Position numbers and translations under genes: made by a program | Origin: a bacterium | Lineage (GTDB): Bacteria > ARS69 | Direction of reading: 5' to 3' | NCBI GenBank assembly: GCA_025774865.1 | Contig: JALGZO010000612.1 | Coordinates: 1-20,840 of the forward strand | Length of the DNA stretch: 20,840 nt | Shown: positions 1,089 to 20,840 of the stretch, piece after piece | Layout of the letters: each line of letters starts with the position of its first letter | How positions within the stretch are numbered: position 1 is the first letter of the stretch | The notes under the pieces: generated by a model | What the model saw: only the letters and a program-made list of their open reading frames with translations | Told to the model about the DNA's origin: nothing | Database searches by the model: none

Positions 1089-1628
1089 ATGTCCTCCCGG
1101 TCCGTCTCCAGCCTCGGAGTATTCACGGCGCTGGTCGCGGCTTTGGGGTTCGCGCTTTCGGGGGTCCCGAACGTCGAGCTCATGACGCTCTCCACATTCG
1201 TCTCCGGTGCGCTGCTCGGTGCGATCCGGGGCGCGATCGTCGGGGCGGGAGCGATCGCGATCTACTCCTCCTTCAATCCGTACGGGCCCGCACCTCCGCC
1301 GGTCTTCGTCATGCAGGTTCTCGGGTACGCGTTCGTGGGGGTCGTCGGAGGGGTCGTCGCGGGTCGGGCGGTCGCATCCCGACGGCTGGAGACGTTCACG
1401 GGGGCTGCTCTCGGAGCCGTGCTCGGGTTCGGCGTCACCCTGGTCTATGATGTGATCACCAATCTCGGAACGGCGTGGTCGATGGGGGTGTACCTCGACC
1501 CCGGTCCCATCGTATGGGGAGGGCTCGCGTTCGCTCTCTGGCACATGGTGTGGAACGCGGCTTTCTTCGCAATCTGTGCACCCCCGCTGCTCGCGGCGGT
1601 GCGGCGGCGGAAGGTGCGCTCACTTTGA
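1089..1628 (+). CDS. ECF-transporter S-component-like integral membrane protein
   Basis: The product is 179 residues, almost all hydrophobic, with about five to six predicted membrane segments (near residues 8-25, 33-58, 70-92, 100-122 and 135-165) and a basic C-terminal tail (VRRRKVRSL). The motif GVPNVELMTL after the first helix and the FNPYGP segment in the middle resemble substrate-binding S components of energy-coupling-factor vitamin transporters. Those proteins bind a vitamin or metal in the inner membrane and need a shared ATPase and T-protein module, which is not in this window. The ATG at 1089 is used; its ribosome-binding site is weak. Its stop codon overlaps the start of the next gene, an outer-membrane receptor, so the two are probably translated together and could serve successive steps of uptake across both membranes. 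Which substrate is moved cannot be read from the sequence. Family assignment rests on motif recall only. Confidence 0.6.
   Translation: MSSRSVSSLGVFTALVAALGFALSGVPNVELMTLSTFVSGALLGAIRGAIVGAGAIAIYSSFNPYGPAPPPVFVMQVLGYAFVGVVGGVVAGRAVASRRLETFTGAALGAVLGFGVTLVYDVITNLGTAWSMGVYLDPGPIVWGGLAFALWHMVWNAAFFAICAPPLLAAVRRRKVRSL
1609..1614 (+). promoter_or_regulatory. Ribosome-binding site for the TTG start at 1625
   Basis: GGAAGG lies 10 nt before the TTG at 1625, inside the end of the upstream gene. Together with the signal peptide that begins exactly there, it supports this non-ATG start. The spacing is a little long, so translational coupling to the upstream gene is probably also used. Confidence 0.4.
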
Positions 1629-3517
1629 GATCGCTCGCGCTCGCCTCGATCGTAACCGCGGCGATCCCGACGGTGCTCGTTGCCGCCGATCCAGCTCCGG
1701 AGCCGCCCGCGGACTCCAGCTCCGTCGCTCCGGTGACCTCGCCCGACAGCGCCGCCGTCGCCCCTGCGGCGCCTCCCTTCGAACCCGACCCGACCGTCTG
1801 GGAGCTTTCGACGTTCCGACTCTCCCGCTCGGCGGACCTCGAGCTCGTTTCCTTCGGCGAGCTCGACGATCCGATGGAGCCGATCGGTACCCTTTCGATG
1901 GCCGATGTGTTGCGGCTGTCGCCGGAGGTCCGGACCCGCGAGCTGTCCCAGGGGCCCACGGTCGAGACGTTCGAGCTGCGGGGCGGGGGAAGCGGACGCT
2001 CTGCCTTCTTGTGGCCCGGGCGATCTCTCACGGTTCCGGGCACGTCGGGTCCGCACACGCACGAGGTCATGCTTTCCGAAGTGTCCGAGCTCCGGATCCT
2101 GCGAGGAGGGGCCGCTGCTCTCTACGGACCAGGGGCCGCGTCGGGGGTGGTCGTCGTGCGGCCGCGCGAGCTCTCTCCCGATCAACTCCACTCTCGGGCC
2201 ATGGGCGAGGAAGGCGTCGACGATTACCAGCGCGGCGCGTTCCAGGTCGCGAGTCGCATCGGACCCGGGGCGGTGTTCCTGACCACCGAGTCACGCCGGA
2301 CCGACGGTTTCTACGCGGGGACGAAGGAGGTCGACCGGCAATTCTCCGGCGTTTGGCGCGGGCGGCTGCCCTTTGCGTTCGAGGGCTCGTTCGGGTATCG
2401 GCTCTTCAAGGGAGACGGCCGCACCGGCTTCTTCGACCCGGCGACGATCGGACACGTCCTGACCTACCGCGACGAGATCCACGTGAGCCTCTTCCGGCGG
2501 ACCCGAAACGACCGCGGCGCGTTGCTCGAGGTCGGTCTCCTTCGCGAGGATCTCGAGAACGAGGATGGGACGACGCAGACGCGCGACATCCGAAGTCCGC
2601 GGGCGGAACTGACGTTCGATCTGCCGGACCTCGCCGGGATCCGGTGGACCGCGCGCGCCGAATTGGCTCAGTGGCGGATCGATCACCAGGAGGTCGGGGA
2701 TCGCGATCAGTTCATGCGTTGGGGCGGCGCGGTGCGAGCGACATGTCCGCTCGGTTCGCGCGCGTTCGTGACCGGCACCGTGCGAACCGACGGCCAGGAT
2801 CAGGACACCGCCCTGCAGGCGCGACTGGAAGGCGAGTGGGCCCTCGGTCGGCTCGCGCTATTCGGAGTCGCGTCCCGGGGCGAGCACTATCCGGATCGCG
2901 GGGCGGAAGGATCGGAGACGGAGACCCACGACTCCGCGACCCTCGGCCTGCGTCTCCGGGTGGCGCCTCTCGTCGCGCGGGTTGCCGCCTTCGGGACGCG
3001 CATCGGGGACTTGCGTCCCGGACCGGAGTTCGACGCCGTGCAGGCGAGGCAACCGGTGCTCGGCGCTCCGGTCGGCGACGCCGAAATCACCGGGGGTACC
3101 GTCGGTTTCGAGACGGAACGGTTCGCCGTGCCCGGTGTGCGGTTCCTCGGTTCGTTCCTGTTGCGCTCCAGCTTCACGCAGATGGCGACCGAGAACGTGG
3201 ACACCGGTGACCCATTGCCGGGCCGGCCGGAACGCACGTGGACCGGGGAAGGGCTCCTCGAACGACGCTTCTTCAAGGGAGAGTTGCTCGCGCGAGTTCG
3301 GGGTCGGCTCACGCACTATGGTGACCGCGTGGACGCCGAGGGGCTGGCGGTGCGCGACGTGTGGCTCACGGACGTGATCCTGGAGGGGGAAATCGGGGAC
3401 GCTGCCTTCTTCTACCGCATCCACGATCTTCTCGAACGTATGGACGAGGTGGAGCCGGGTTTCTTCTTCCCAGGATTCTCGCGATACCTGGGAATCACCT
3501 GGCGCTTCTTCGGCTGA
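1625..3517 (+). CDS. TonB-dependent outer-membrane receptor
   Basis: A TTG start at 1625 is chosen because it is followed at once by a clean signal peptide (MRSLALASIVTAAIPTVLVA, cleavage near Ala-21); the longer frame back to 1475 would lie inside the upstream gene and have no signal. The product is 630 residues. After a Pro/Ala-rich spacer (about 22-55) comes a plug-like domain (about 60-180), with MADVLRLSPEV, FELRGGGSG and the ELRILRGGAAALYGPGAASG stretch typical of TonB-dependent receptor plugs. The rest alternates short polar and hydrophobic stretches as in a beta-barrel. The end (FPGFSRYLGITWRFFG) resembles the closing strand of BtuB-type receptors. The barrel is of ordinary size or slightly short. 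It would import a scarce ligand across the outer membrane using TonB energy; the ligand is unknown. A clear TonB box was not identified. It is coupled by TTGA to the S-component-like gene and converges on the minus-strand cluster. Confidence 0.8.
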   Translation: MRSLALASIVTAAIPTVLVAADPAPEPPADSSSVAPVTSPDSAAVAPAAPPFEPDPTVWELSTFRLSRSADLELVSFGELDDPMEPIGTLSMADVLRLSPEVRTRELSQGPTVETFELRGGGSGRSAFLWPGRSLTVPGTSGPHTHEVMLSEVSELRILRGGAAALYGPGAASGVVVVRPRELSPDQLHSRAMGEEGVDDYQRGAFQVASRIGPGAVFLTTESRRTDGFYAGTKEVDRQFSGVWRGRLPFAFEGSFGYRLFKGDGRTGFFDPATIGHVLTYRDEIHVSLFRRTRNDRGALLEVGLLREDLENEDGTTQTRDIRSPRAELTFDLPDLAGIRWTARAELAQWRIDHQEVGDRDQFMRWGGAVRATCPLGSRAFVTGTVRTDGQDQDTALQARLEGEWALGRLALFGVASRGEHYPDRGAEGSETETHDSATLGLRLRVAPLVARVAAFGTRIGDLRPGPEFDAVQARQPVLGAPVGDAEITGGTVGFETERFAVPGVRFLGSFLLRSSFTQMATENVDTGDPLPGRPERTWTGEGLLERRFFKGELLARVRGRLTHYGDRVDAEGLAVRDVWLTDVILEGEIGDAAFFYRIHDLLERMDEVEPGFFFPGFSRYLGITWRFFG

Positions 3518-3519
3518 GA

Positions 3520-5085
3520 TCAGAAGCGATAGACCGCGCTCGCGTGCCCCTGTCGGTTCTCCTCGGTGTCGCCCTCGCTGCGCTCCCCCGACAGAAGCAT
3601 GTACCAGCTCCGAGAGACCCTCGCGTCCAGGTCGAGGGCCGTCCAGCGGAGATCGTTCGTTCCGGTAGAGAGGCCTCCGTCGGTCTCGTCACGGAGCCCG
3701 AAGGTCAGGTCCGCGTGGATCCGCGAACCCAGCGACGCTCCCGCCGTCAGCGAGTGGAGCCATCCGTCCAGCTGCTCGTTGTGGTAGCGCGTGCTTCGGA
3801 TCGTGGCCGATACGTCATGAAGCGCGGGCCGCCCACTTCGTAGCGTCACCGTGGCCGCGTTCGCGGCGCCGGCACCGCCGCCTGCCGAACGCCGGAAGCT
3901 GGCGCCGAGGCTCGTGTGGGCGAGCGGTCGGACCCGAACGCCCGCCCAGGCTCCCTGGCGGTAGCTGTCGTCGAAGTCCGTTTCCGGGGTGACACGGTGA
4001 CGGTACAGACGGATTGCGCGCCGCGTATCGAAGCCGGCGTCGAGCGAGACGTTCCTTCGCACGTCCCAGCGCGCGCCGAGGAACGTGCTCGTGGGGGTCA
4101 GCGACGGCTCGCGATCTGCCTTCCACCCCCGGTTGAGGTCGATCTCCTGCGTCGCGTGGGCGAAGACGGTTCCCCGGCGCAGTCGCCCGGTCACGACGAA
4201 GTACTCGCGGTCGAGCGACCCTTCGTCGTAGGAGCCGACGAAACCCGTCGTGAGACTCCCCTTCGTCTCTCGGCCGAGACTCTTCCAGCCGATCCAGAGC
4301 CCGTACTCGCGAATCCGATCGGACCAGCCGAAGTCCTCGAGGCCGGGCTGGGTCCCGCCGAAGATCCCCGCGGCCCAGTGTCCCGTCTCGTACGCGGCGG
4401 CGACACCGTCGAAGATGCTCACCGACGCGAGCGACGCGGAAATCTGCCGTCCGGCGGTGATGGCGAGCCCTCGCCCCGGGGGTCGCCAGCGGCCGAGCAG
4501 ACGGTACACCCGAGTGCGGTCGTCTTGGCGGCCCTCTCCGTCGGTGAGCGTGCGATAGGTTCGGCGCGTTCGTACGTCCACGGAGACGTCCACCTGCTCG
4601 AGGAGCGCGCGTCCGTCGAGCCTCACGTCGAGGCCGGGTTGCTGGTAGTCCTCCCCGACGCCGGTGCGATCGCTGAATCCGAGGTAGCGGAAGCCGAGCC
4701 GTCCCCGAAACTTCCGCTCTCCCCGCCGCCCCGCGTCGGCGCGAACGGCGGGGGGAGGAGACGACCCGGCGGGAGGCTCATCGAGCGATCGGAAGACCGG
4801 GGCGAACGTGACACGGTCGCCCACGGAAAGCTCGACTTCCGGGTCCTTCCGAGTGCACGAAGCACGGCGGGACGAGAGGGCCGTCACTTCGAGCGTGGTA
4901 ATCGCCGCCCCGTCTCGAACGACGGTGACGATCATGCCCTTCGTGAGGCCGGCCTCCGATCCGGCGTCGAGGTAGATGGAGGATGACGTGAGATAGCTGA
5001 TTCTCGCCTCCGCCGGTTCGCTCGCGTGGACGGGACACGTCAAGGCGACGCCGGCGAGGGCCAGCGTGACGATCGCGGCGATCAA
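3520..5085 (-). CDS. Outer-membrane beta-barrel with N-terminal periplasmic domain (porin-like partner of multiheme cytochromes)
   Basis: The start is a TTG at 5085 that overlaps the stop of the upstream cytochrome gene as TTGA; it opens directly into a signal peptide (MIAAIVTLALAGVALTCPVH, cleavage near residue 21). The much longer open frame upstream is a shadow of the cytochrome genes. The mature protein has a compact beta-rich domain (about 25-98, with SSSIYLDAGSEAGLTKGM and LSVGDRVTF, SH3-like in character), a proline-rich linker (about 99-118), then some 400 residues of alternating amphipathic strands ending in Tyr-Arg-Phe, the terminal aromatic expected of an outer-membrane barrel. No ligand-binding or enzyme motif is seen. 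As the last gene of a cluster with 20-heme and 16-heme cytochromes it is well placed to act as the porin sheath of a porin-cytochrome conduit (the role of MtrB or OmbB), though no sequence similarity to those is claimed. There is no clear Shine-Dalgarno, so expression probably depends on coupling. An unrelated barrel role remains possible. Confidence 0.72.
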   Translation of the reverse strand: MIAAIVTLALAGVALTCPVHASEPAEARISYLTSSSIYLDAGSEAGLTKGMIVTVVRDGAAITTLEVTALSSRRASCTRKDPEVELSVGDRVTFAPVFRSLDEPPAGSSPPPAVRADAGRRGERKFRGRLGFRYLGFSDRTGVGEDYQQPGLDVRLDGRALLEQVDVSVDVRTRRTYRTLTDGEGRQDDRTRVYRLLGRWRPPGRGLAITAGRQISASLASVSIFDGVAAAYETGHWAAGIFGGTQPGLEDFGWSDRIREYGLWIGWKSLGRETKGSLTTGFVGSYDEGSLDREYFVVTGRLRRGTVFAHATQEIDLNRGWKADREPSLTPTSTFLGARWDVRRNVSLDAGFDTRRAIRLYRHRVTPETDFDDSYRQGAWAGVRVRPLAHTSLGASFRRSAGGGAGAANAATVTLRSGRPALHDVSATIRSTRYHNEQLDGWLHSLTAGASLGSRIHADLTFGLRDETDGGLSTGTNDLRWTALDLDARVSRSWYMLLSGERSEGDTEENRQGHASAVYRF

Positions 5086-6362
5086 CTCGAGCCCCGGGGG
5101 TGACAGGCCAGGCAGGCCTCGCTCTCGTACACGTAGCCGTTCTCTCCGCTGTGATCTTCGTCGGTCTTCTGCCGGTCGCTGTGGGGGTGGCAGCCGAAGC
5201 AGCTGAACACCGACGGATCCGTCGGATTCACGTGGCAGTCGGAGCAGCTCGTCCACTCGTTTCGGTGACGGCCGCTGTAGATGGGGAAGAAGGGTCCGTC
5301 GTGATCGAACGTGGCACCTTCCCACTGCGACGTCCCGTGGCACGACGCGCAGTCGGTACCGAAGCCGCTGCCGAGGTGGTCCGGGTTCGTGGTCGCCTGG
5401 TAGTCGGCGAGGTGGCACGACACGCAGGCCGGATCCGTCCCGGCAAATACGTCGTCCACGTGGCACGCCTGGCACTCCACGGTCCGGTGGGCACCGGTCA
5501 GCGGAAACGCGGTGAGGGAGTGGTCGAACGTCGCGGGCACCCAAGCCTGCGTCGAATGGCAGGACACGCAATCCGTCGAGAGCCCGGCCGCGAGGTGCGC
5601 CGGCCGGACGGTCGAATCGTACTCGTTGCGATGACAGCCGACACACTGGTTCGGAGCGCCCGTGAACTCGAACCCGGGGTGGCATCCGCGACAATCGGCC
5701 CCCACGTGGGCGCCGGTCAGGGGGAAACCCGTCAGAGCGTGGTTGAACGTCGTGCCGGCCCACGAGTAGGTGGAGTGGCACTGCGCGCAATCGGTCGGGA
5801 ACGCCGCCGGGACGTGGGCGGGATTCGTAGTGCTTTCGTAGGCCGGCCGGTGACACACCACGCACTCGGTGGGGGTGTTCGCGAACTGCAGCGACGCGCC
5901 GCGCGTCTCGTGACACGCACCGCACTCGAGAGTCCGATGGACTCCGGTCAGGGGGAATCGCGTCGCTCGATGGGAGCGGACCTCGTCTCCCCGGTCGACG
6001 AAGTTGCGCGTGGTATGGCAGCGATCGCAATCGCTGCCGAGCTCACCGAAGTGGACGTCTTCGTGGCACGCGGCGCAGGTCGTACCCGTCACGGTCTCGA
6101 ACTCGAGCGTGAGGTGGCAGAGGAGGCAGGGAACGTTCTCGTGCGCGTGCTCCAGGGGAAAGCCGAACTGGGAGTGGTCGAAGTCGGGCCCGATGGTCGC
6201 CGGGCTCCAGCTCTTCGCGTCGTGACAGTTGCGACAGTCGGCCCGGAACGAGCCGTGCGGATTGTCGGGAGTCTCTTGGGCGGGCAGCGGAACGACGCTG
6301 GCGAGAAGCCAGCCGAGCACCGTGATCGCGAGCCGGTGCCCGCGGGGTGACGGACGGTTCAT
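5082..6362 (-). CDS. 16-heme periplasmic c-type cytochrome
   Basis: The product is 426 residues from the ATG at 6362, which overlaps the preceding stop as ATGA and has GGAGGG 6 nt upstream. A signal peptide (about 1-29, ending in PLPAQ) precedes 16 CxxCH heme sites with cysteines starting at residues 43, 79, 96, 112, 147, 167, 192, 224, 240, 265, 297, 313, 338, 373, 388 and 417. No lipobox, membrane helix or catalytic domain is seen, so this is an electron wire. Residues 96-377 form four tandem modules of about 70 residues, each with three CxxCH sites and three spaced extra histidines (NPxH, FxH, GxH types) suited as distal ligands. Partial modules sit at both ends. It lies between the 20-heme gene and the barrel gene. 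Lacking a lipid anchor it could sit in the periplasm or inside the barrel, as MtrA does in MtrB; which is not resolved. Confidence 0.9.
   Translation of the reverse strand: MNRPSPRGHRLAITVLGWLLASVVPLPAQETPDNPHGSFRADCRNCHDAKSWSPATIGPDFDHSQFGFPLEHAHENVPCLLCHLTLEFETVTGTTCAACHEDVHFGELGSDCDRCHTTRNFVDRGDEVRSHRATRFPLTGVHRTLECGACHETRGASLQFANTPTECVVCHRPAYESTTNPAHVPAAFPTDCAQCHSTYSWAGTTFNHALTGFPLTGAHVGADCRGCHPGFEFTGAPNQCVGCHRNEYDSTVRPAHLAAGLSTDCVSCHSTQAWVPATFDHSLTAFPLTGAHRTVECQACHVDDVFAGTDPACVSCHLADYQATTNPDHLGSGFGTDCASCHGTSQWEGATFDHDGPFFPIYSGRHRNEWTSCSDCHVNPTDPSVFSCFGCHPHSDRQKTDEDHSGENGYVYESEACLACHPRGSS
5232..6077 (-). repeat. Four tandem three-heme modules in the 16-heme cytochrome
   Basis: Units begin at residues 96, 167, 240 and 313 of the protein (71, 73 and 73 residues apart). 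Each reads C-x2-CH, about 10-12 residues, an extra His, then C-x2-CH, an F-x-H-like His, a PLTGxH-like His and a third C-x2-CH. The first unit has VH104, H131 and H142; the later ones NPAH or NPDH, FNH or FDH, and GAH or GRH. This is a protein-level repeat with diverged codons, not an exact DNA repeat. Confidence 0.85.
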
Positions 6363-8134
6363 CGGGTTCCCTCCTCGAGCGGCGGGGAGGGGCCATGGCA
6401 ATCCTCGCACCGCCGTGAGACGGGCCGGTACCGGGGGCTCGTCGAGCCGTCGGCGTGCACCGTGGGCGCGTGGCACGCCTGGCAGGCGGTCCTCGCGTGC
6501 GCGCCCACCAGGGAGAATTCTGCGTCGCGCTCGTGATCGAATCGCGCGGCCGGCCCCCAAGCGTCGAGGCCGTGGCAGGAGGAGCAGGCGCCCCGATCCT
6601 CGAACTGCCCGCCGTGCGGATCGCGATGGCAATCGCGGCAATCTCGGTGGCGGATCTCGAACCCGAGGTGGGGAGTGGCTCCGGCATCGATGAGAGTGGA
6701 CGCGAGGCGGTCTCCCTCGAGCTCGCGGTGGCATTCGAAGCAAGGGATCGCCGCGTGTGCACCTTCGAGAGGAAACGCGTAGGTGGCGTGCACCGTCGCG
6801 TTGACGTGTGACGGGGAGAACCGATCGTGGTCGTGGCAGGAGAGGCAACCGTCGCTCGCCGGACGCTCCCCGTCCTGAGCGAATCTCCCCCGGTGGGGAT
6901 CGACGTGACAGCTCCGGCACTCGGTGTCGGCAAAGCGGAACCGGACTCCCGCCGCGCCCAGCTCCCGCCCCGAATTCGGGCGGGCGCGGTCCGGAGCGTG
7001 GCACGACCGGCAGTCCGCCTCCACGTGACTTCCCGACAGCGGAAACGCGAGCGTCTGATGATCGGCCACCGCGAAGGTGGAGGGTCTGAACCCCTCGACG
7101 AGGTGACAGGACTCGCAGTCGCCGCCGTCCGACCGGCCGGCCAGCTGCGTCCCGTGCGGATCGGCATGGCAGTCGACACATCGCGCGTGCGCCATCCGTA
7201 GTTTCACACCGTCCCCTTTCGTCGTGACGTGGCACGCCTCACACGCCGCGCTGACGTGCCTCCCCTCGAGCGGGTAGGGTCCGTCCGCGTGCATCGCCAC
7301 GGTGAACGTGGAGGGGCGAAAGCGATCGACTCCGTGGCATTGCGCGCAATCGGCGCGGCGACCGGCGATCGTGGCGAGACCTTGATGAGGATCGGCGTGG
7401 CACGAGGCACAGTTCGAAGACGCGGGCTGGTGGATCCATCCCGCTTCCGATTCGTGGCACCCGGCGCACGACACCTCGCGGTGGGCGCCGCGAAGCGGGT
7501 ACCGAGTGCTCTCATGATCGAAGCCGGTGTCGATGATCTTTCGGAAGTCGTGCTCGGTGTGGCACTTGGCGCAGTCCGAGCCGAGTCGTCCCGCGTGGGG
7601 ATCCGCGTGGCAGCTGGCGCACGCGACCTCCAGCCCGAGCCAGGTTGCCCGGCCGGGTCCGCCGTCGCGGAGCGTCATGACGGCGGACTCGTGGAACTCC
7701 TCTCGATGACAGGTGCGGCACTCGGCCTCCCGGTGGCGCCCCCGCAGCTCCCAGCCGGCGCGCCGATGGTCGAACGACGTGTATCCCCTCTTCCCCCAGT
7801 GAACGATCTCGAAGTCCTTCCCGCCGTGTTCCTGATGGCAGGTCGCACACTCGCCGAGGCCGTCGGCGCCGTGGAGGCCGCGCCCTTGCGCGCGCAGCCA
7901 TTCGATCTCGACGTGGCACTCGAGGCATCGCGCGTCCAGCTTCGCCTCGCCGATCCCGTGACACTCGAGACACTTCAAGACACCCTCCAGCTCCGCGTGC
8001 GCTTTCGACAGGGGGCCCGGCGAGATCTGGGCCGTCACCCGCAGCGGCGCGGCGACGAATCCGAGCGCGGTCGCGGCGACGAGCGCACGGCGGAGCCGCA
8101 TCGCGAACGGGCGGCGCTCAGACCCCGACGGCAT
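6359..8134 (-). CDS. 20-heme periplasmic c-type cytochrome
   Basis: The product is 591 residues with 20 CxxCH heme sites, the cysteines starting at 55, 70, 96, 139, 172, 188, 223, 242, 263, 298, 319, 340, 375, 406, 430, 465, 499, 517, 551 and 576. The ATG at 8134 is preferred because GGAGG lies 6 nt before it; it overlaps the upstream stop by 17 nt. A second ATG at 8101 would give a more compact signal peptide (MRLRRALVAATALGF) but has no ribosome-binding site. The signal peptide has no lipobox, and there is no catalytic domain. Five regular three-heme modules (172-555) follow one looser module (70-143). Each carries DPH, a central His and GxH as probable sixth heme ligands. It is placed after the Fe-S/FAD protein and before the 16-heme protein, so it is the likely first periplasmic carrier of the path. 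A multiheme reductase role cannot be excluded, but every heme appears to have a candidate distal His. Confidence 0.9.
   Translation of the reverse strand: MPSGSERRPFAMRLRRALVAATALGFVAAPLRVTAQISPGPLSKAHAELEGVLKCLECHGIGEAKLDARCLECHVEIEWLRAQGRGLHGADGLGECATCHQEHGGKDFEIVHWGKRGYTSFDHRRAGWELRGRHREAECRTCHREEFHESAVMTLRDGGPGRATWLGLEVACASCHADPHAGRLGSDCAKCHTEHDFRKIIDTGFDHESTRYPLRGAHREVSCAGCHESEAGWIHQPASSNCASCHADPHQGLATIAGRRADCAQCHGVDRFRPSTFTVAMHADGPYPLEGRHVSAACEACHVTTKGDGVKLRMAHARCVDCHADPHGTQLAGRSDGGDCESCHLVEGFRPSTFAVADHQTLAFPLSGSHVEADCRSCHAPDRARPNSGRELGAAGVRFRFADTECRSCHVDPHRGRFAQDGERPASDGCLSCHDHDRFSPSHVNATVHATYAFPLEGAHAAIPCFECHRELEGDRLASTLIDAGATPHLGFEIRHRDCRDCHRDPHGGQFEDRGACSSCHGLDAWGPAARFDHERDAEFSLVGAHARTACQACHAPTVHADGSTSPRYRPVSRRCEDCHGPSPPLEEGTR
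6369..6374 (-). promoter_or_regulatory. Ribosome-binding site of the 16-heme gene
   Basis: GGAGGG on the minus strand, 6 nt before the ATG at 6362, lying inside the end of the 20-heme gene. It fixes this ATG as the start rather than the far longer upstream open frame. Confidence 0.7.
6470..7621 (-). repeat. Five tandem three-heme modules in the 20-heme cytochrome
   Basis: Units start at residues 172, 242, 319, 406 and 499 and follow the pattern C-x2-CH-x-DPH, C-x2-CH, central His, PLxGxH, C-x2-CH. The extra His residues are 180/207/218, 250/282/293, 327/359/370, 414/449/460 and 507/534/546. The same plan is found in the adjacent 16-heme protein, implying growth of both by module duplication from one ancestor. 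Confidence 0.85.
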
Positions 8135-9554
8135 CGCGTGCCTCCGCGAGAGGCAGTTCCTTCACGACCGACGCGATGCCGAGCCGCGCGAGGAACCGGT
8201 CGGGGGGCTCGCCTCCGATCCGGACGATCACCGTGTCGTTCGGAAGTTCGATCGTCCCGTCCGGTCCGGCGATCTTCACCCGCCCCGGTTCGATCGAGAC
8301 CACGGTGCTTTCACGAAGGACGCGCACGCCACGGACTCGCTCCGCTTCCTGCAACCGAGCGACGTTCCGTTCCTTGGCGCGGTCGAAGTCGCGACCTCGG
8401 TAGCTCAGCGTGACCGCCGTCTCCGTTTGGTGGGCGAGTCCGATCGCCGATTCCAGAGCGCTATCGCCCCCCCCCACCACGAGGACCCGCTGCCCGCGGA
8501 AGGCTTCCATCTCGACGATGTCGTAGAAGACGCGGTTCGACTCTTCACCCGGCACGCCGAGGCGTCGCGGCGTGCCGCGTCGACCGAGGGCGAGAATGAC
8601 GCTCCGCGCGTGCACGGCGAACGTCTCGCCGCGAAGCAGGAACACGCCGCCTTCGGTCGTGACTTCCTGAACCCGGTGCCCCGAGCGGAGTCTCAATTCA
8701 CGACTCTCGACGATCGTCTCCCAAACCCGGAGAAGCGTTTCCTTGGAGGCGTCAGCGATCCAGAGATCTCCCCAGAGCGGCACGCTCACCGGTTCGCCGA
8801 GTACGAGCTTGTGCCGCGGGTACCTGCGGATCGAGTCGGCGAGCGTCCCCTGCTCGAGGATGACGTAGTCGAGTCCCGCGCTCTGGGCCTCGAGACCCGC
8901 ACTGAGTCCGGCCGGCCCGCCCCCGACGATCGCGAGATCGAAGATCGGTGGCGCGGCGAGGGTGGGCCGGCTCTGAACGTCGCCGGCCAGCTCCTTCGCC
9001 ACGCTCTCCGCGGCGACTTTTCCTTCGTTGATGGCGTTCTTGATGAGTCCGCGCCCGCCCAGCTCACCGACGATGTAGATTCCCGGCACGTTCGACTGAA
9101 AGTCCCAACGAACGTCGGGCACTTCGACCCGGTGGACCTCGGCGCCGGTCGTGAGGAGGATCCCGCCGACCGGGCAAGCGTCGACGCACTTGCCGTGGCC
9201 GACGCAGCGCTCCACGTCCACGACGGCCAGCTTTCCCTCCATCCGGATCGCCCCTTCCTCCGGACAGGCTGGGACGCATGCGGCGCAGCCCACGCAAACG
9301 TCCGCTCGTACCACCGCGTGCAGGGTGGTCGAGTCCTCCGCCTCGCGGACCGGAGCGAGAGCCGGCGCCGACGCGATCTCGAAGACCTGGAGCGGGACTC
9401 CACAGCTCGGACAGGAAGTCGCCTTTCCGGGGAGCGACGCGTCGCAACGCGGACATCGATGGCTCCGTTCGCCGCCGCCCGACCGACGAACTTGCACGGC
9501 GATCGCGAGCGCGCACAGCGCCAGAAAACCGATCGTGGTGAAAAGGCCGCTCAC
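8118..9554 (-). CDS. Membrane-anchored ferredoxin/FAD-NAD(P) oxidoreductase, permuted thioredoxin-reductase-like fold
   Basis: The GTG at 9554 overlaps the cytochrome b stop as GTGA and gives 478 residues. In order: one N-terminal membrane helix (about 4-22) followed by arginines, which puts the rest in the cytoplasm; a zinc-ribbon-like pair (C34/C37, C48/C51); a two-cluster ferredoxin domain (C87, C90, C93, C97, then C117, H120, C123, C127); a segment NVPGIYIVGELGG...EGKVAA (about 155-182) that matches the C-terminal FAD-binding end of thioredoxin-reductase-like proteins; an FAD Rossmann motif GGGPAG (211-216); and an NAD(P) motif GGGDSA (361-366). The usual C-terminal FAD motif is missing at the end, so the fold looks circularly permuted. 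No redox-active CxxC of true thioredoxin reductase is seen. It probably passes electrons between NAD(P)H (or ferredoxin) and the co-encoded cytochrome b at the inner membrane; direction and substrate are inferred. Confidence 0.85.
   Translation of the reverse strand: MSGLFTTIGFLALCALAIAVQVRRSGGGERSHRCPRCDASLPGKATSCPSCGVPLQVFEIASAPALAPVREAEDSTTLHAVVRADVCVGCAACVPACPEEGAIRMEGKLAVVDVERCVGHGKCVDACPVGGILLTTGAEVHRVEVPDVRWDFQSNVPGIYIVGELGGRGLIKNAINEGKVAAESVAKELAGDVQSRPTLAAPPIFDLAIVGGGPAGLSAGLEAQSAGLDYVILEQGTLADSIRRYPRHKLVLGEPVSVPLWGDLWIADASKETLLRVWETIVESRELRLRSGHRVQEVTTEGGVFLLRGETFAVHARSVILALGRRGTPRRLGVPGEESNRVFYDIVEMEAFRGQRVLVVGGGDSALESAIGLAHQTETAVTLSYRGRDFDRAKERNVARLQEAERVRGVRVLRESTVVSIEPGRVKIAGPDGTIELPNDTVIVRIGGEPPDRFLARLGIASVVKELPLAEARDAVGV
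8141..8145 (-). promoter_or_regulatory. Ribosome-binding site of the 20-heme gene
   Basis: GGAGG on the minus strand, 6 nt before the ATG at 8134 and inside the oxidoreductase gene. It decides between the starts at 8134 and 8101; the latter has no purine-rich stretch in front. Confidence 0.65.
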
Positions 9555-10492
9555 GGTATTCGGATCCAGGTGGCGCCGAAGGCGACGACGACGATGACGT
9601 GGACGGTCACCGCCAGGAATGCCGTGGCGGCGAACGGTCGATGGGCCGTGTCCCAGAATCGGAAGACCCGGTTCGTGTGGTCGAGCATGCGGATCTGCTG
9701 CGAGAACGCCATCTCCCTCCGCGCGAGGCGGGACACGCGGCGCAGCCGCGCCCGATCCGGGGGTACGGCCGGCGCCGTGCGCCTCCAATAGGTCACGAGC
9801 TTGCGCGTGGCGCGTCGCCGCGCGAAATCGTCCGACACCATCCGAGCGATGATCGCGAAGATGTTGTCGCCCGGCGCCGGTGCGGCGGCCGGCGACAGCA
9901 GTCCGAGAACCAGCTCCGGAGGTAGCGCGGTCGACGCGACGATTTCTCCCGTCAGACGTCTCCTCTCGCCAGCGACCTCTTCTCGGGACAGCTCGAGGCC
10001 GTCTCTCGCTCTCGGGATGCGCACGTAGAGGTACCGTCCGACCACGCCGCTGAGCGCCACCACGAGCATGGCCGCGTACCCCAGTCCGATGAGGCCTTCG
10101 AATCGCCAGGCCGCGTGCACTGCGCCGACGACGGGGACGAGGAGCCCCACGACGACGTGCACGTCGAGCCAGCGCCCCAGCGGCCCGGTCCAGGCGAGGA
10201 ACCTCAGGCGCTTCCGCACGGGGTAGAGCCAGAGAAACAGGAACAGGAAAAGCGTGAGGAGCCCCGCCGTTTGCCCGACGTAGCCGGAGGGGCGAAACCA
10301 GGGATGCAGTGGGCTCAGGAGCCGTTGGGAGAGCGGCAGCGTGTAGTAGGGCAGCCCGGCCGCCGTCGCGACGATCGGCGGCAACAGGAAGACGAACACC
10401 GCTCGCGAGACGAAGGGCCCGCGCGCTCGGGTCCGGCCGCGAGGCGTGACGTCGGCCGGCGTTGTGGACGAATTCTGGAGCTGCGTCACCAC
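9551..10492 (-). CDS. Diheme cytochrome b, integral membrane
   Basis: The product is 313 residues from GTG at 10492 (a second GTG at 10489 is equally possible; GAGGGTGG lies just upstream). Five membrane helices are visible, near residues 31-52, 71-91, 109-129, 134-157 and 284-306. Helix 3 carries H112 and H126 and helix 5 carries H284 and H298, both pairs 14 residues apart: the pattern by which four-helix cytochromes b ligate two hemes, one near each face of the membrane. Positive charges put the N-terminus and the basic 120-residue loop (about 158-283) in the cytoplasm and the C-terminus outside. The protein would carry electrons across the inner membrane. It is first in the cluster and overlaps the Fe-S/FAD gene, its probable cytoplasmic partner. 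It could alternatively exchange electrons with quinone. Not confidently placed in a named family. Confidence 0.8.
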   Translation of the reverse strand: MVTQLQNSSTTPADVTPRGRTRARGPFVSRAVFVFLLPPIVATAAGLPYYTLPLSQRLLSPLHPWFRPSGYVGQTAGLLTLFLFLFLWLYPVRKRLRFLAWTGPLGRWLDVHVVVGLLVPVVGAVHAAWRFEGLIGLGYAAMLVVALSGVVGRYLYVRIPRARDGLELSREEVAGERRRLTGEIVASTALPPELVLGLLSPAAAPAPGDNIFAIIARMVSDDFARRRATRKLVTYWRRTAPAVPPDRARLRRVSRLARREMAFSQQIRMLDHTNRVFRFWDTAHRPFAATAFLAVTVHVIVVVAFGATWIRIP

Positions 10493-11394: not shown

Positions 11395-12759
11395 ATGCAG
11401 GTAAGCTCCGAGATCTTTCGCGAGTACGACATTCGTGGGCTGGTCGACCCCCAGCTCGACTCCGCCACCTGCGAGGCGATCGGGAAGGGATTGGGAACCA
11501 CCCTTCGCCGCGCCGGCGCCAGGAACGTCGTCGTGGGAAGGGATGTCCGTCTCTCTTCGGATCGCATTTGCGACGATCTGGTGCGGGGCTTGACCTCCAC
11601 CGGCCTGGACGTCATCGACATCGGAATCGTTCCGACGCCTTGCCTGTACTACGCGCTGTACACGAAGGATGTCGGTGGCGGGGTCATGATCACGGGAAGT
11701 CACAATCCGGCCGAGTACAACGGATTCAAGACGTCGATCGGCAAGTCTTCCATTCATGGCAAGAAGATCCAAGAAGTGCGCGAGCTGATCGTGGCCGACG
11801 ACTTCGACACGGGCGCCGGCCAGGTCGAAAAAAGACGGATCCTGCCGGAGTATCTGGGGCAGTTGACGGAGGGGGTGGCGCCGGATCGCGGCCTCACCGT
11901 CGTGGTCGACGCCGGGAACGGCGTCGCGGGGCCCCACGCGCCGAACGTCCTGGAGACGCTCGGTTGCACCGTGCACAAGCTCTACTGCGAGCCCGACGGG
12001 AATTTCCCGAATCATCACCCGGACCCGACCGTGGACGAGAACCTGCGGGACCTCGTCGCGAAGGTGAGGGAGACCGGCGCCGACGTCGGGATCGCATTCG
12101 ACGGCGATTCCGATCGCATCGGCGCGGTCGACGAGAAGGGGAACATCATCCGCGGTGATCGTCTCCTCGCGCTCTACGCCCGCGGCGTCCTCGCCGACGG
12201 TCCGACGTCGGTGGTCTTCGAGGTGAAGTGCTCGAAGGGGCTGATCGAGGACATCGAAGCACACGGCGGTACGCCGGTCATGTGGCGCACGGGCCACTCG
12301 CTCATCAAACAGAAGATGAAGGAGACAGGCTCGCTTCTCGCCGGTGAGATGTCCGGGCACATGTTCTTCGGCCACCGTTACTTTGGCTACGACGACGCCA
12401 TCTACGCGGCCGCGCGGCTCGTCGAGATCGTCGCCAACGAGGGTGTGCCGCTTTCGGAGATCATGGCGACGATTCCGTCGTACCCGTCGACGCCGGAGCT
12501 CCGGGTCGAGTGCCCCGAGGAGCACAAGTTCGCTGTCGTGAAGGAGATCACGGAGTACTTCCGCCGGGATCACCCGGTGATCGACGTGGACGGCGCGCGC
12601 ATAGACTTCGGTGACGGGTGGGGACTCGTGAGGGCGTCCAACACGACGCCGCTTCTGGTCCTCCGTTTCGAAGCGGATACGGAAGCGCGGGTGGAGGAGA
12701 TCCGTAGGATCGTCGAGGCGAAGCTGGACGAGGTCATGCGCTCCGTGGTGGCCGCGTGA
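11395..12759 (+). CDS. manB: Phosphomannomutase/phosphoglucomutase
   Basis: The product is 454 residues, full length for the bacterial alpha-D-phosphohexomutase family. It interconverts mannose-6-phosphate and mannose-1-phosphate (many members also take glucose phosphates). All four signature sites are intact: the phosphoserine loop TGSHNP with Ser-102, the metal loop DGDSDR (236-241), the sugar-binding loop GEMSGH (317-322) and the phosphate-binding loop RASNTTP (413-419). FREYDIRG at the N-terminus is typical of the AlgC/ManB type. The ATG at 11395 has GAGGAG just upstream. The stop overlaps the next start as GTGA, coupling it to the guanylyltransferase that uses its product. Cytoplasmic. 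Mannose specificity is inferred from the neighbour; a glucose role is possible too. Confidence 0.92.
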   Translation: MQVSSEIFREYDIRGLVDPQLDSATCEAIGKGLGTTLRRAGARNVVVGRDVRLSSDRICDDLVRGLTSTGLDVIDIGIVPTPCLYYALYTKDVGGGVMITGSHNPAEYNGFKTSIGKSSIHGKKIQEVRELIVADDFDTGAGQVEKRRILPEYLGQLTEGVAPDRGLTVVVDAGNGVAGPHAPNVLETLGCTVHKLYCEPDGNFPNHHPDPTVDENLRDLVAKVRETGADVGIAFDGDSDRIGAVDEKGNIIRGDRLLALYARGVLADGPTSVVFEVKCSKGLIEDIEAHGGTPVMWRTGHSLIKQKMKETGSLLAGEMSGHMFFGHRYFGYDDAIYAAARLVEIVANEGVPLSEIMATIPSYPSTPELRVECPEEHKFAVVKEITEYFRRDHPVIDVDGARIDFGDGWGLVRASNTTPLLVLRFEADTEARVEEIRRIVEAKLDEVMRSVVAA

Positions 12760-13814
12760 GCCGGATCCACTCGATCATCATGGCCGGCGGCCGAGGCACC
12801 CGCTTCTGGCCGGCCAGTCGCGAGAGCCGTCCGAAGCAGTTTCTCCCGTTCGGCGGCGAGGATTCGTTGCTGCGGCTGACCGGCCAGCGTCTGTTGCCGC
12901 TCTCGGGCGAGCGCCGGACGTGGGTGCTGACGAATGCGGCCCACGTCGATCTCGCAAGCGAGCATCTGCCCGAGGTTTTGCCGGACAGAATCGTCGGGGA
13001 GCCGGTCGGTCGGAACACGGCGCCGTGCATCGCGCTCGCGGCCGCACTGGTGCAGCAGGAGGATCCGGATGGCGTGCTGCTGGTGGCCCCGGCCGACCAC
13101 TGGATCGGTGATGAGAACGAGTTTCGGCGCGCCGCGGAGTTGGCGGCGAAGGTCGCGGAGGAGCAGCGCGCGCTCGTGACGTTCGGGATCACGCCGGCGG
13201 CCCCGGAGACGGGATACGGCTACATCGAGGCGGGAGAGGCCGAGCGGAAAGAGGTCTTTCGCGTAGCGCGATTCACTGAGAAACCGGATCGCGACACCGC
13301 CGAGCGATTCGTCGCGGGCGGGCGTCACTACTGGAACAGTGGGATCTTCGCGTGGCGCGCCGACGTTTTCCTCGATGAGCTCGCGAAGCACCAGCCGGAC
13401 ATGGCGGCGGGCTGCCGCGAGATCGTGGAGGCGGGGAATCGGGACGCCGCGCTCGCCGCGGTCTACCCCGGGCTCACCTCGATCTCGGTCGACTACGCGG
13501 TTCTCGAAAAGGCATCGCACGTGTTCATGGTGGCGGCGAGCTTCCCGTGGTCCGACGTGGGCTCCTGGAACGCGCTGGCCGATGTGCTCCCCGCCAACGG
13601 CGACGGCAACGTGTTCGAGGGAGACGCGATCGCCTTCGACTCGTCCGGCTGCCTCGTCCGCGCCGGCTCCCGGTTCACGGCCGTGGTCGGCGTGAAGGAC
13701 CTCCTCATCGTCGACATGCCGGACGCGCTTCTCGTCTGTCCGAAGGACCGCGCCCAGGACGTCAAGAAGATCGTCGAGGAGCTCGAAGGCAAGGGCCGTA
13801 AGGAACTGCTCTAG
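12756..13814 (+). CDS. manC: Mannose-1-phosphate guanylyltransferase
   Basis: The product is 352 residues from a GTG at 12756 overlapping the previous stop. It makes GDP-mannose from GTP and mannose-1-phosphate. Visible motifs are the nucleotide loop GGRGTRFWP (11-19) with RPKQF (25-29), EPVGRNTAP (82-90), PADH (112-115), ETGYGYI (151-157), FTEKP (173-177), NSGIF (194-198), SVDYAVLEK (244-252) and WSDVGSW (265-271). It is the short single-function form: the C-terminal isomerase domain of the bifunctional ManC/AlgA enzymes is absent, matching the length of stand-alone enzymes. With the mutase upstream it completes a two-step route to GDP-mannose for polysaccharide, LPS or protein glycosylation; no glycosyltransferase is present in the window to say which. 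Confidence 0.92.
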   Translation: MSRIHSIIMAGGRGTRFWPASRESRPKQFLPFGGEDSLLRLTGQRLLPLSGERRTWVLTNAAHVDLASEHLPEVLPDRIVGEPVGRNTAPCIALAAALVQQEDPDGVLLVAPADHWIGDENEFRRAAELAAKVAEEQRALVTFGITPAAPETGYGYIEAGEAERKEVFRVARFTEKPDRDTAERFVAGGRHYWNSGIFAWRADVFLDELAKHQPDMAAGCREIVEAGNRDAALAAVYPGLTSISVDYAVLEKASHVFMVAASFPWSDVGSWNALADVLPANGDGNVFEGDAIAFDSSGCLVRAGSRFTAVVGVKDLLIVDMPDALLVCPKDRAQDVKKIVEELEGKGRKELL

Positions 13815-14129
13815 CCGCTCCGGGGCTACCCGATCCCGGTTCTTCGAACATCTTGGGATTCCACCGGGCGGAACGCCGTTCGGAGCCCGGGCTGACGAAC
13901 CAAAGGCATTCTCCCCACCTACCGAGCTCGTTCGAGCCGGGAGTCGTCCCCCCGAGTGCGTCGAAAGACCCGGTCGCAACGTTGCGAATCGCACATCGCG
14001 AGCAATGCTTGGAGATCGTGACAACCGATTGAAACTCAAGGGGATCCGCGTGCCTTGCGGTCAAGGGAGCGGAATGCGGCACCGATATCCGAATGGAGAA
14101 TCCGGAGCCTCAGCTCGCGGGGCGTTCCG
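13815..14129 (+). other. Intergenic region before the competence/pilus genes
   Basis: These 315 nt hold no credible gene except a possible N-terminal extension of the next gene from TTG 14055. The inverted repeat at 13878-13900 is the clearest element. A looser dyad (TTGC...GCAA) occurs at about 13982-14005. The promoter for the comEA-pil block should lie here, but no convincing -35/-10 or -24/-12 pair was recognised. Confidence 0.45.
13878..13900. repeat. 23-nt inverted repeat upstream of comEA-pilB
   Basis: GTTCG-G-AGC-CCGG-GCT-GA-CGAAC: the arms GTTCG/CGAAC and AGC/GCT pair perfectly around a self-complementary CCGG centre, with one and two unpaired bases between. There is no T-tract after it. 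It could be an operator for the downstream block or a weak terminator for manB-manC. Confidence 0.45.
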
Positions 14130-14672
14130 GTGACGCGGGAGGAGCGGAACGTTCTGCTCTTTGTCGTTCTCGGAGTCTTGCTCGGGTCATTGCCGGAGAT
14201 CGCCGGGAACGAAGGGGCGGGGCGGGCCGAACGTGAGGCCGACGCCGCGACGGATGAAGTCGTCGTGGTCGATCTGTTCCCGATCGATGTGAATCGAGCC
14301 GGGCCCGAGCTCCTGGACGAGCTTCCCGGGATCGGTCCAGCGAAGGCCCGCGCCATCGTAGAGCTCCGCGAGGACCGCGGCCCGTTCGCGAGCGTGGACG
14401 AGCTCGCAAACGTGCACGGGATCGGGCCGCGTACGGTCGATCGGCTCCGAGAACTGGTGACGGTCGGGGAGGTGCGCCGAGCCTCCTCCGCGCAGCAGGA
14501 AGCGGATAAAGCACCCGGAGGGCGTCTTGTCGCAGGAACGGCTCGAGACACTTTTTCTGGAGAACGAGCTGCTCACGGCGCAGCAGCTCGAAAGCGCCAA
14601 GGTCCAGCAGAAATCGTCGGGGGAGTCTCTCGACCTCAGTCTCGTGAAAATGGGGCTGATGACCGAGAGTGA
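14130..14672 (+). CDS. comEA: ComEA-like helix-hairpin-helix protein with N-terminal membrane anchor
   Basis: From GTG 14130 the product is 180 residues: a membrane helix (about 8-24), an acidic spacer, then a tandem helix-hairpin-helix domain (about 52-112) with PIDVNRAGPELLDELPGIG and VHGIGPRTVDRL. This is the domain by which ComEA binds incoming DNA in the periplasm during natural transformation. An upstream TTG at 14055 would add 25 residues; GTG 14130 is preferred because the membrane helix then comes first, but its ribosome-binding site is weak. The frame runs 146 nt into pilB, and the last 48 or so residues look like out-of-frame composition, so the functional protein probably ends near 14520. 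It lies directly upstream of pilus motor genes, consistent with pilus-assisted DNA uptake. A role in DNA repair or another DNA-binding role is also possible. Confidence 0.72.
   Translation: MTREERNVLLFVVLGVLLGSLPEIAGNEGAGRAEREADAATDEVVVVDLFPIDVNRAGPELLDELPGIGPAKARAIVELREDRGPFASVDELANVHGIGPRTVDRLRELVTVGEVRRASSAQQEADKAPGGRLVAGTARDTFSGERAAHGAAARKRQGPAEIVGGVSRPQSRENGADDRE
14517..14522 (+). promoter_or_regulatory. Ribosome-binding site of pilB
   Basis: GGAGGG, 4 nt before the TTG at 14527. It supports the TTG start and hence the long overlap with the upstream frame. Confidence 0.6.
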
Positions 14673-16218
14673 TTTGCTGACGGCGCTCTCACGCATCTAC
14701 GACATGCCCGCGGTCGACCTCGCCAACTTCGACGTCGATCGGAATTCCGTGGAGCTGCTCCCGGCTGACGTCGCGGTCAAGTTCTCGGCGGTTCCGATCC
14801 GCAAGGTCGGCCGAACGCTCACGCTGGCGATGGCCGATCCCCTCAATCTCTACGCCATCGACGACATCAAGTTCATCGTCGGGCTCGAGGTCCAGCCGGT
14901 CGTGGCCGCCGAGAGCGCGATCAAGAAGACGATTGATCGCTTCTACGGTACTGCCAACGCGCTCAACGAGATCATGAAGGACATGGAGGACGGGGGGTCC
15001 ATCGAGCTCGTCGAGGACGCGGACGACGAGGGGTACTCCGAGACCGGCGAGGACGACGCACCGGTCATCAAATACGTGAACTCGTTGCTGGCGGAAGCCG
15101 TGACGAGAAGGGCGTCGGACGTGCACTTCGAGCCGTTCGAAAAGGAAGTTCGGGTCCGCCTTCGTCAGGATGGTGCTCTCTACGAGCTGCAGTCGCCGCC
15201 GCTTCGCATGAAGAACGCGATCACCTCGCGGCTCAAGCTCATGGCGGAGCTCGACATCGCAGAGAAGCGCATCCCGCAGGACGGCCGGATCAAGATCCGA
15301 ATCCAGAACCGCATGATCGATCTGCGCGTCTCGAGCCTGCCCGTGATCTACGGCGAGAAGATCGTGATGCGCATTCTGGACCAGCAAAACCTGAACGTGA
15401 ACCTGGAGTCCTTCGGGTTTCAGCCGGAAGCGCTCGATCGATTCTCCAGGGCAGTCAAGAGCCCGTACGGGATGGTGCTCGTCACGGGCCCGACGGGATC
15501 CGGCAAGACCACGACACTCTACTCTGCGATCTCGAAGATCAACACCATCGACGTCAACATCATGACGGCGGAGGATCCGGTCGAGTACAACCTCGCCGGC
15601 ATCAACCAGGTGAACGTCAACGACGACATCGGGCTCACGTTCGCGGCGGCGCTCAAGGCGTTCCTCCGCCAGGATCCCAACATCGTCATGGTGGGCGAGG
15701 TCCGAGATCTCGAGACCGGCGCGATCGCGGTGAAGGCCGCATTGACCGGACACCTCGTGCTCTCCACGCTCCACACGAACGACGCCGCATCCTCGATCGA
15801 CCGAATGATCGACATGGGGATCGCACCGTTCCTCGTGGCCTCGTCCGTGAATTGTATCGTTGCTCAGCGGCTGCTCCGCCGCATCTGCCCCGGCTGTCGT
15901 GAGAAGCACACTCCCCATCAGGAGCTGCTCCAGGAGCTCCAGCTCGATCCCGACGAAATCGGCGACGGAAAGCTCTATCACCCCGTGGGTTGTGACGATT
16001 GTCATGGGACAGGCTACCGGGGGCGGACGGGCGTCTACGAGGTGCTCGACATGTCCAGTTGCCTCAGGAAGATGATTCTCGACCGAGAGTCGACGGCTGA
16101 GCTGAAGGCGACCGCCATCGAGGAGGGGATGCTCACGCTGCGCAGGGATGGATTACGAAAGATGCTCCTCGGGGAAACGAGCCCCGAAGAGGTGCTTCGC
16201 GAGACGTCGGCCGACTGA
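14527..16218 (+). CDS. pilB: Type IV pilus extension ATPase
   Basis: The product is 563 residues from TTG 14527, a usual length for PilB. It powers pilin polymerisation at the cytoplasmic face of the pilus machine. The N-terminal domain (about 1-140, MshEN-type, with LLTAQQLESAK and GLMTESDLLTAL) is present from the first residues, which confirms the start. The motor domain has Walker A GPTGSGKT (321-328), the Asp box TAEDPVEY (347-354), Walker B IVMVGEVRD (386-394) and the His box TGHLVLSTLHTN (407-418). The zinc tetracysteine typical of extension ATPases is intact (C454/C457 and C489/C492). An acidic insert (about 153-178) precedes the motor. GspE of type II secretion is the main alternative, but pilT and pilC directly downstream favour PilB. 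Confidence 0.93.
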   Translation: MSQERLETLFLENELLTAQQLESAKVQQKSSGESLDLSLVKMGLMTESDLLTALSRIYDMPAVDLANFDVDRNSVELLPADVAVKFSAVPIRKVGRTLTLAMADPLNLYAIDDIKFIVGLEVQPVVAAESAIKKTIDRFYGTANALNEIMKDMEDGGSIELVEDADDEGYSETGEDDAPVIKYVNSLLAEAVTRRASDVHFEPFEKEVRVRLRQDGALYELQSPPLRMKNAITSRLKLMAELDIAEKRIPQDGRIKIRIQNRMIDLRVSSLPVIYGEKIVMRILDQQNLNVNLESFGFQPEALDRFSRAVKSPYGMVLVTGPTGSGKTTTLYSAISKINTIDVNIMTAEDPVEYNLAGINQVNVNDDIGLTFAAALKAFLRQDPNIVMVGEVRDLETGAIAVKAALTGHLVLSTLHTNDAASSIDRMIDMGIAPFLVASSVNCIVAQRLLRRICPGCREKHTPHQELLQELQLDPDEIGDGKLYHPVGCDDCHGTGYRGRTGVYEVLDMSSCLRKMILDRESTAELKATAIEEGMLTLRRDGLRKMLLGETSPEEVLRETSAD

Positions 16219-16238
16219 TCGGTCCGAGGAGAAGTCGA

Positions 16239-17318: not shown

Positions 17319-17348
17319 CGACTCGGGGAGTCAGGGGAACTCAGCGCC

Positions 17349-18557: not shown

Positions 18558-18565
18558 GACACGCC

Positions 18566-20248: not shown

Positions 20249-20840
20249 TGGCCAACGAGAGAATCCTGGTCGTCGACGACGAAGAGAGCCTTCGCCGGTT
20301 CCTCTCGATCATGCTGTCGCGCGAGGGCTACGAGGTCACGGAGGTAGCCGGGGGTACCGAGGCGCTGCGCGCCTTCGAGAAAGACTCCTTCGACGTGGTC
20401 ATCTCCGACATCCACATGTCGGGAATGTCGGGGATCGAGCTTCTCAAGGGAATTCAAAGCCTCGATCCGACCGTTCCTGTCATCATGATGACGGCGTATG
20501 CGTCACTCGACACGGCGATCGAGGCCGTGAACCACGGCGCATTCCACTACTTCGTGAAGCAGACGAAGAACGAAGAAATCAAGATCGTGATTCGTCGCGC
20601 GATCGAGATGCGGGGGTTGCGGCGCGAGAATAGGTACCTGCGACACGAGCTCACCAGCAGCCAGAAGTCCCGACGCATCATCGGGAACAGCCCGCGGCTC
20701 GAGCAGGTGTTCGAGACGGTCCGCAAGGTCGCGAAATCGGACTCGACCGTGCTCCTCTGCGGCGAGAGCGGAACCGGGAAGGAGCTGTTCGCCCGTGAGA
20801 TCCATGCGGCGTCGAGCCGCGCGTCAGGGCCCTTCGTCTC
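20248..20840 (+). CDS. pilR: Sigma-54 response regulator of the PilR type (3' end outside window)
   Basis: The frame starts at ATG 20248 and is open to the end of the window (197 codons). A receiver domain fills about 1-120: acidic pair D10/D11, phosphoacceptor D54 in VVISDIHMSGM, T82 and K104. After a linker helix, the AAA+ sigma-54 activator domain begins near 143 (IIGNSPRLEQVFETV) and has Walker A GESGTGKE at 172-179; the window ends soon after (near ASGPFV). It would activate sigma-54 promoters, classically pilA, on phosphorylation by the adjacent kinase. Odd point: the residue after K104 is Gln (FVKQTKN), where nearly all receivers have Pro. The GAFTGA loop and DNA-binding domain are outside the window. 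Confidence 0.9.
   Translation, partial: MANERILVVDDEESLRRFLSIMLSREGYEVTEVAGGTEALRAFEKDSFDVVISDIHMSGMSGIELLKGIQSLDPTVPVIMMTAYASLDTAIEAVNHGAFHYFVKQTKNEEIKIVIRRAIEMRGLRRENRYLRHELTSSQKSRRIIGNSPRLEQVFETVRKVAKSDSTVLLCGESGTGKELFAREIHAASSRASGPFV

Follow-up and report, generated by a model that had tools for sequence, protein, structure and literature searches.

The window analysed here, a stretch of 20,840 bases, is one entire contig (C616) of a 785-contig draft genome with an estimated completeness of 92.65% and contamination of 8.3%. Translation revealed five minus-strand genes between positions 3520 and 10492, each overlapping its neighbour (by 4, 17, 4 and 4 bases in succession from the first gene to the last). 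They encode a five-helix, diheme cytochrome b (cytb; 313 aa, 9551..10492), a membrane-anchored 2[4Fe-4S]/FAD/NAD(P) oxidoreductase (the FeS/FAD protein; 478 aa, 8118..9554), a 20-heme cytochrome c (cyc1; 591 aa, 6359..8134), a 16-heme cytochrome c (cyc2; 426 aa, 5082..6362) and an outer-membrane barrel protein with a TTG start (521 aa, 3520..5085). Judged from sequence, cyc1, cyc2 and the barrel protein have signal peptides; neither cytochrome has a lipobox. The first-pass annotation had described these five overlapping genes and their products, and translation, motifs and models bore it out. On the plus strand, convergent with the module, positions 1089-3517 encode an ECF S-component-like protein and then a TonB-dependent receptor, for which the best model is B12-receptor-like. 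Further along the plus strand (14527-20838) lie the type IV pilus genes pilB, pilT and pilC, then a PilS-like kinase and a response regulator, all named from sequence. The flanking genes of the window are not kept beside the module in relatives. A possible link between the pilus operon and the module was discarded because PilB and PilT do not lie near the relatives' modules.

Four histidines of cytb (H112, H126, H284 and H298) are invariant in an alignment of 30 relatives. They form two HX13H pairs, His112-X13-His126 and His284-X13-His298, with an in-pair distance of 14 residues, and in the structural model (five membrane helices, mean pLDDT 90.4) the first pair lies in TM3 and the second in TM5. 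Two stacked b hemes in this layout are familiar from ferric reductases and NADPH oxidases, and cytb shares with the Ferric reductase/NOX superfamily the trait of an HX13H pair in each of two helices of a b-type membrane domain. Matches to Ferric_reduct were weak, appearing in 12 of the 30 cytb members with E 6.9e-6 for the best relative and E 0.51 for the window's own protein (PF01794). Indeed, all Pfam matches among the relatives (Ferric_reduct, DUF4405, b561) were sub-threshold. Searches against known structures gave no clear solved relative of cytb, and Foldseek and VIA, being uninformative here, returned only unrelated helical proteins for the model. TM4 and TM5 are separated by a positively charged insert of 120 residues, which the charge pattern predicts to be cytoplasmic.

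Profile searches resolved the FeS/FAD protein into an N-terminal TM, a zinc-ribbon-like CxxC pair, a dicluster ferredoxin and a Pyr_redox domain, in that order. By alignment, the ferredoxin part (9165..9317, minus strand) comprises C87-x2-C90-x2-C93-x3-C97P and C117-x2-H120-x2-C123-x3-C127P. Its second motif, CxxHxxCxxxCP, has a histidine in place of the usual second cysteine; since this residue is invariant in 23 sequences, it suggests a second cluster of the Cys3-His type. The FAD and NAD(P) Rossmann parts (8166..8942, minus strand), recognised from profiles and alignment by GGGPAG, GGGDSA and the invariant R386, R392 and N397, fold as the YpdA/TrxR type (7a7b, E 2e-48; the FNR 3ab1 also matched). 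Across the 23 sequences this region contains no conserved cysteine or CXXC, and a role as a disulfide (bacillithiol) reductase was therefore rejected as the active-site cysteine is missing. From sequence alone, a 2'-phosphate-binding arginine pattern was considered: R386 and R392 follow GGGDSA and are invariant, and no acidic residue is found there. Together with the kinship to YpdA, these arginines lean towards NADPH as the donor.

The flavoprotein is also apparently circularly permuted. The segment NVPGIYIVGELGGRGLIKNAINEGK (8979..9104, minus strand), which is C-terminal in YpdA/TrxR proteins, here lies N-terminal of the FAD Rossmann motif and was recognised by comparison with YpdA and by a lipoamide dehydrogenase profile, in which positions 291-334 align to residues 148-190 of the FeS/FAD protein. 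The stretch NVPGIYIVGELGG...EGK stands near the C-terminus in both YpdA and lipoamide dehydrogenase but ahead of the FAD motif in the FeS/FAD protein. The permutation is argued mainly from this motif order, since second-segment scores against YpdA structures, taken alone, were not significant. Matches at loci L045-L048 covered the FAD domain only and lay in different gene contexts; they were set aside. Frames of ~760-910 aa with a similar FAD domain and no ferredoxin occur in L045 (282-3011), L047 (8457-10733) and L085 (8989-11373), the last adjoining a cytochrome b and a 10-heme cytochrome.

The two cytochromes contain 20 (cyc1) and 16 (cyc2) CXXCH motifs. In profile searches, part of cyc1 matched the MtrA chain 6r2q_A (E 1.5e-7), and the protein also matched GSU1996-type and 16-heme cytochromes; its match to the MtrA/DmsE model TIGR03508 was partial (33 bits, cut-off 192). 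Across the family cyc1 has 20 or 23 hemes nearly always. The heme spacing of cyc2 follows a different plan, in which a head (36-17-16-35-20-25) is followed by copies of a 32-16-25 unit and finally by a tail, which reads 35-15-29 in the window. The window's protein has two copies of this three-heme, 73-residue repeat (5337..5786, minus strand). Counting the window's own, 30 of 34 uncut principal cyc2 proteins have a CXXCH number equal to 1 mod 3 (10+3n), with values of 10, 13, 16, 19, 22, 25, 31, 34, 40, 43 and 76. The four exceptions have 12, 9, 15 and 15, and one of those with 15 (L034) has an extra CX4CH. The protein with 76 motifs is a single 1,934-residue frame (L103 11905-17709, genome G280) in which the three-heme repeat runs almost without deviation. 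The 36-heme path proposed at first pass is correct as a count for the window (20+16), but the total varies within the family. With cyc1 constant, cyc2 expandable and a barrel encoded alongside, the arrangement fits a wire of tuned length, which would either span the periplasm or reach outside the cell. The window encodes no third cytochrome and no lipobox cytochrome, and a surface lipoprotein cytochrome is missing from most relatives' clusters too. Lipobox cytochromes were found only in two divergent clusters, L044 (5001-5636, 8 hemes) and L099 (10209-11948, 11 hemes), where these additional multiheme proteins are possible surface cytochromes.

The barrel protein is modelled with 22 strands (3523..4710, minus strand; mean pLDDT 79.5), preceded by a small N-terminal beta domain (4801..5013, minus strand) that is weakly FlgT_C-like in profile searches. 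It matched no Pfam family in a profile search. MtrB_PioB (PF11854) in particular matched neither the window's barrel nor those of 17 relatives, and a profile search of the draft found it absent from the window's genome. In fold searches the structural neighbours of the model were outer-membrane barrels; many of these were returned, with no named conduit among the matches listed (an absence that carries no weight), and structure comparison gave no clear solved relative.

The same five-gene order, the recurrence of which the first-pass annotation had made a test of its proposal, is found across phyla. Among named genomes, we identified 27 proteins related to the FeS/FAD protein, from Gemmatimonadota, Eisenbacteria, Acidobacteria, Krumholzibacteriota and one unclassified bacterium; a 28th match (L039) covered a short stretch only and was left out. 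The compact relatives keep the order cytb, FeS/FAD, cyc1, cyc2, barrel. Wherever their contigs extended far enough, cytb (25/25), cyc1 (25/25), cyc2 (23/23) and the barrel (16/16) were all present, so that barrel and cytochromes co-occur, as a conduit had been said to demand. Additionally, pairwise distances of four module proteins correlate with r of 0.83-0.93. In a sample of 386 genomes, 25 encode a full FeS/FAD protein, and cytb and cyc1 are found in 24 and 23 of these, respectively; the Fisher values for the two gene pairs (p 3e-32 and 1e-25) are descriptive rather than strict probabilities, since the genomes are related and the search profiles included rows from five of these genomes as well as from the window's own. 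The five genes are a genuine, co-inherited module.

More distant lineages have these genes in different arrangements; for instance, the FeS/FAD gene comes last in L041, L042, L091, L092 and L105 and first in L040 and L102. A single compact locus, L015, has cyc2 and the barrel gene in the opposite orientation to the other module genes (12505-15938), and these two would accordingly be able to form separate transcription units. In the tree, the window clusters with Krumholzibacteriota (97/97), and one row from Eisenbacteria sits beside Gemmatimonadota; horizontal transfer of the module is possible. An apparent cyc1-barrel fusion in L023 was discarded as an artefact of a frame that runs through a gap of Ns.

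How electrons might enter the module is indicated by the partners of cytb. At two loci the FeS/FAD protein and cytb are encoded in one reading frame (L103 5892-8156 and L099 5259-8297), and the cytoplasmic end of the flavoprotein joins the cytoplasmic start of cytb, in agreement with the topology. At some loci where cytb occurs without an FeS/FAD protein, other candidates, all named from sequence, adjoin it on the same strand. L080 has a NirB/rubredoxin-reductase-like FAD protein with a ferredoxin encoded by its own gene, and L086 has an FAD protein resembling that one; NuoE/NuoF-like genes are found in L087, and L083 has the Fe-S subunit of a Mo-enzyme. These differing partners make cytb and the multiheme cytochrome look like a plug-in core for several cytoplasmic donors. 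Since the partners are mostly of the NAD(P)H type, NAD(P)H input is favoured, and the subunit in L083 suggests a donor other than NAD(P)H in some cases. At one further locus, L097 (6401-13593, genome G338), the neighbours of an FeS/FAD protein and cytb are an ETF-oxidoreductase-like protein and etfBA-like genes, and both multiheme cytochromes and barrel are missing; given this setting, the entry pair may serve a different pathway there.

These results are best accommodated by a model, which we consider probable, whereby the five genes encode one trans-envelope conduit from NAD(P)H inside the cell to an extracellular acceptor, without quinol. NAD(P)H, probably NADPH, would be oxidised at the FAD of the cytoplasmic flavoprotein, and electrons would pass by way of both Fe-S clusters to the heme b on the cytoplasmic side of cytb (H112/H284), then across the inner membrane to the one on the periplasmic side (H126/H298). 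From there they would move to the 20-heme cyc1, the 16-heme cyc2 and, through or at the 22-strand barrel, to the acceptor. Such a conduit would require neither a quinol nor a terminal reductase. Of the electron conduit envisaged at first pass, the co-inherited trans-envelope module and the step from a cytoplasmic FeS/FAD protein to a diheme cytb stand; NADPH as donor, the outward direction, the order of cyc1 before cyc2, the seating of a cytochrome inside the barrel and an extracellular acceptor are what we infer from them. The wider proposition, that this is a widespread, quinone-independent respiratory conduit carrying NAD(P)H electrons across both membranes, with a cyc2 wire lengthened by three-heme steps (10-76) and a cytb core with exchangeable donors, strikes us as evenly balanced.

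Cytb could instead trade electrons with the quinone pool, with the FeS/FAD protein either in an auxiliary role or as an NAD(P)H:quinone entry, in a CbcL-like manner. Quinone sites are frequent in diheme b-type subunits and cytb may have one, some genomes have cytb without the FeS/FAD protein, and a cluster of cytochrome b and multiheme cytochromes in MBNT15 has been interpreted in this way (PMC9386147). However, the FeS/FAD-cytb fusions and the 24/25 co-occurrence speak against this, as does the replacement of the FeS/FAD protein by other cytoplasmic FAD or NuoEF-like proteins. Moreover, the entry proteins include no NrfD-type subunit and bear no c heme, and we regard a quinol-linked module as unlikely.

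It is also conceivable that electrons travel inward along the wire, from a donor outside the cell such as a mineral or a partner cell, to make NADPH. All parts of the module are reversible in principle, and since homologues of the Cyc2 iron oxidase have been reported in the same phyla (PMC9769843), these lineages could plausibly draw on electron donors from outside the cell. Nevertheless, the first-pass view that reverse flow is equally possible is weakly supported and looks too generous. Electron exit from NADPH would be downhill and aided by the negative-inside potential; reduction of NADP+ (about -0.32 V) from donors like Fe(II), and indeed from most outside donors, is not, inward electrons would work against that potential, and no pump, bifurcating or other energy-coupling part is encoded in the module. 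Uptake is therefore rated lower here, as improbable. Finally, it is very improbable that the cytochromes feed a periplasmic enzyme or act as a capacitor beside a barrel that transports something else: most clusters have no surface cytochrome and at least 36 hemes could hold many electrons, but the barrel is present in every informative compact locus, its distances correlate with those of the other parts, and no conserved reductase gene adjoins the module.

The proposed NAD(P)H-linked conduit can be compared with several known systems. Porin-cytochrome conduits are established (PMC4245776; PMC6148476). As in MtrCAB, OmbB-OmaB-OmcB and Ext (Pcc), multiheme cytochromes and an outer-membrane barrel share one operon, and the models and gene order of the window place a large predicted barrel gene beside genes for periplasmic multiheme cytochromes. 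In contrast to those systems, the barrel has no MtrB_PioB match, the hemes number 20 and 10+3n rather than about 8-14, the operon carries its own inner-membrane and cytoplasmic entry, and the cluster has no surface lipoprotein cytochrome, although variants that lack the surface cytochrome and have larger periplasmic ones are known (PMC4245776). The module is one that works like a trans-envelope multiheme conduit but is not a member of the Mtr family. To date, the entry proteins that have been described are multiheme quinol oxidases (PMC6295460). CymA, CbcL and ImcH, which are such c-type oxidases, likewise hand inner-membrane electrons to periplasmic multiheme cytochromes; the entry here consists of a diheme b protein and the FeS/FAD protein, and translation found no CXXCH in either, confirming the unlikeness noted at first pass. 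A parallel in route is offered by the transmembrane domain of NADPH oxidase/ferric reductase (NOX, FRE), with NAD(P)H, FAD and two b hemes held across the membrane by HX13H pairs, but there the flavoprotein is of the plant-FNR rather than the TrxR type; in the module Fe-S clusters intervene and the acceptor is a multiheme cytochrome. The FeS/FAD protein shares its FAD and NADPH Rossmann fold with YpdA and TrxR-type ferredoxin-NADP reductase, and differs from them in lacking the active-site cysteines, in its apparent permutation and in its fusion to a dicluster ferredoxin and TM anchor. Similarly, cyc2 resembles the triheme c7 repeat cytochromes of the GSU1996 type in its tandem units of three hemes per about 73 residues, but has up to about 22 repeats and a unique head and tail, and is encoded beside a barrel. 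Clusters in MBNT15 and Melioribacter also combine a cytochrome b with several multiheme cytochromes, but no FeS/FAD protein or barrel is described there and they are interpreted as quinol-linked (PMC9386147); the MBNT15 cluster may be a relative of the module. We found no description of the module in the open-access literature, and as far as can be told it is undescribed; its reading as a conduit is probable.

In Gram-negative bacteria, electrons destined for extracellular transfer enter mostly via quinol oxidases, and quinone-independent entry from NAD(P)H is the most interesting claim that we make for the module. If nucleotide-linked entry is correct, cells could dispose of reductant by a route that bypasses the quinone pool, and would probably pay for it in membrane potential. 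Extracellular redox capacity would then extend to many uncultured lineages, amounting to about 6% of the domain-wide sample (25/386) and, within the phylum of G198 (the record of the Eisenbacteria locus L017), to 15 of 47 genomes. The three-heme step of cyc2 supplies a single heme wire in a naturally occurring range of lengths, which should help in asking why lengths differ. Both the FeS/FAD protein with its CxxHxxCxxxCP motif and the HX13H cytochrome b can be searched for with ease as marker genes.

Some features of the source organism bear mention. Three other contigs of the window's draft genome (C34, C129 and C182 of G000) have more runs of CXXCH-type sites, and the organism therefore probably has several further multiheme cytochromes. 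A heme-copper oxidase gene is also present in the draft. The organism may thus respire oxygen too, in which case the module may serve redox balancing or anoxic survival.
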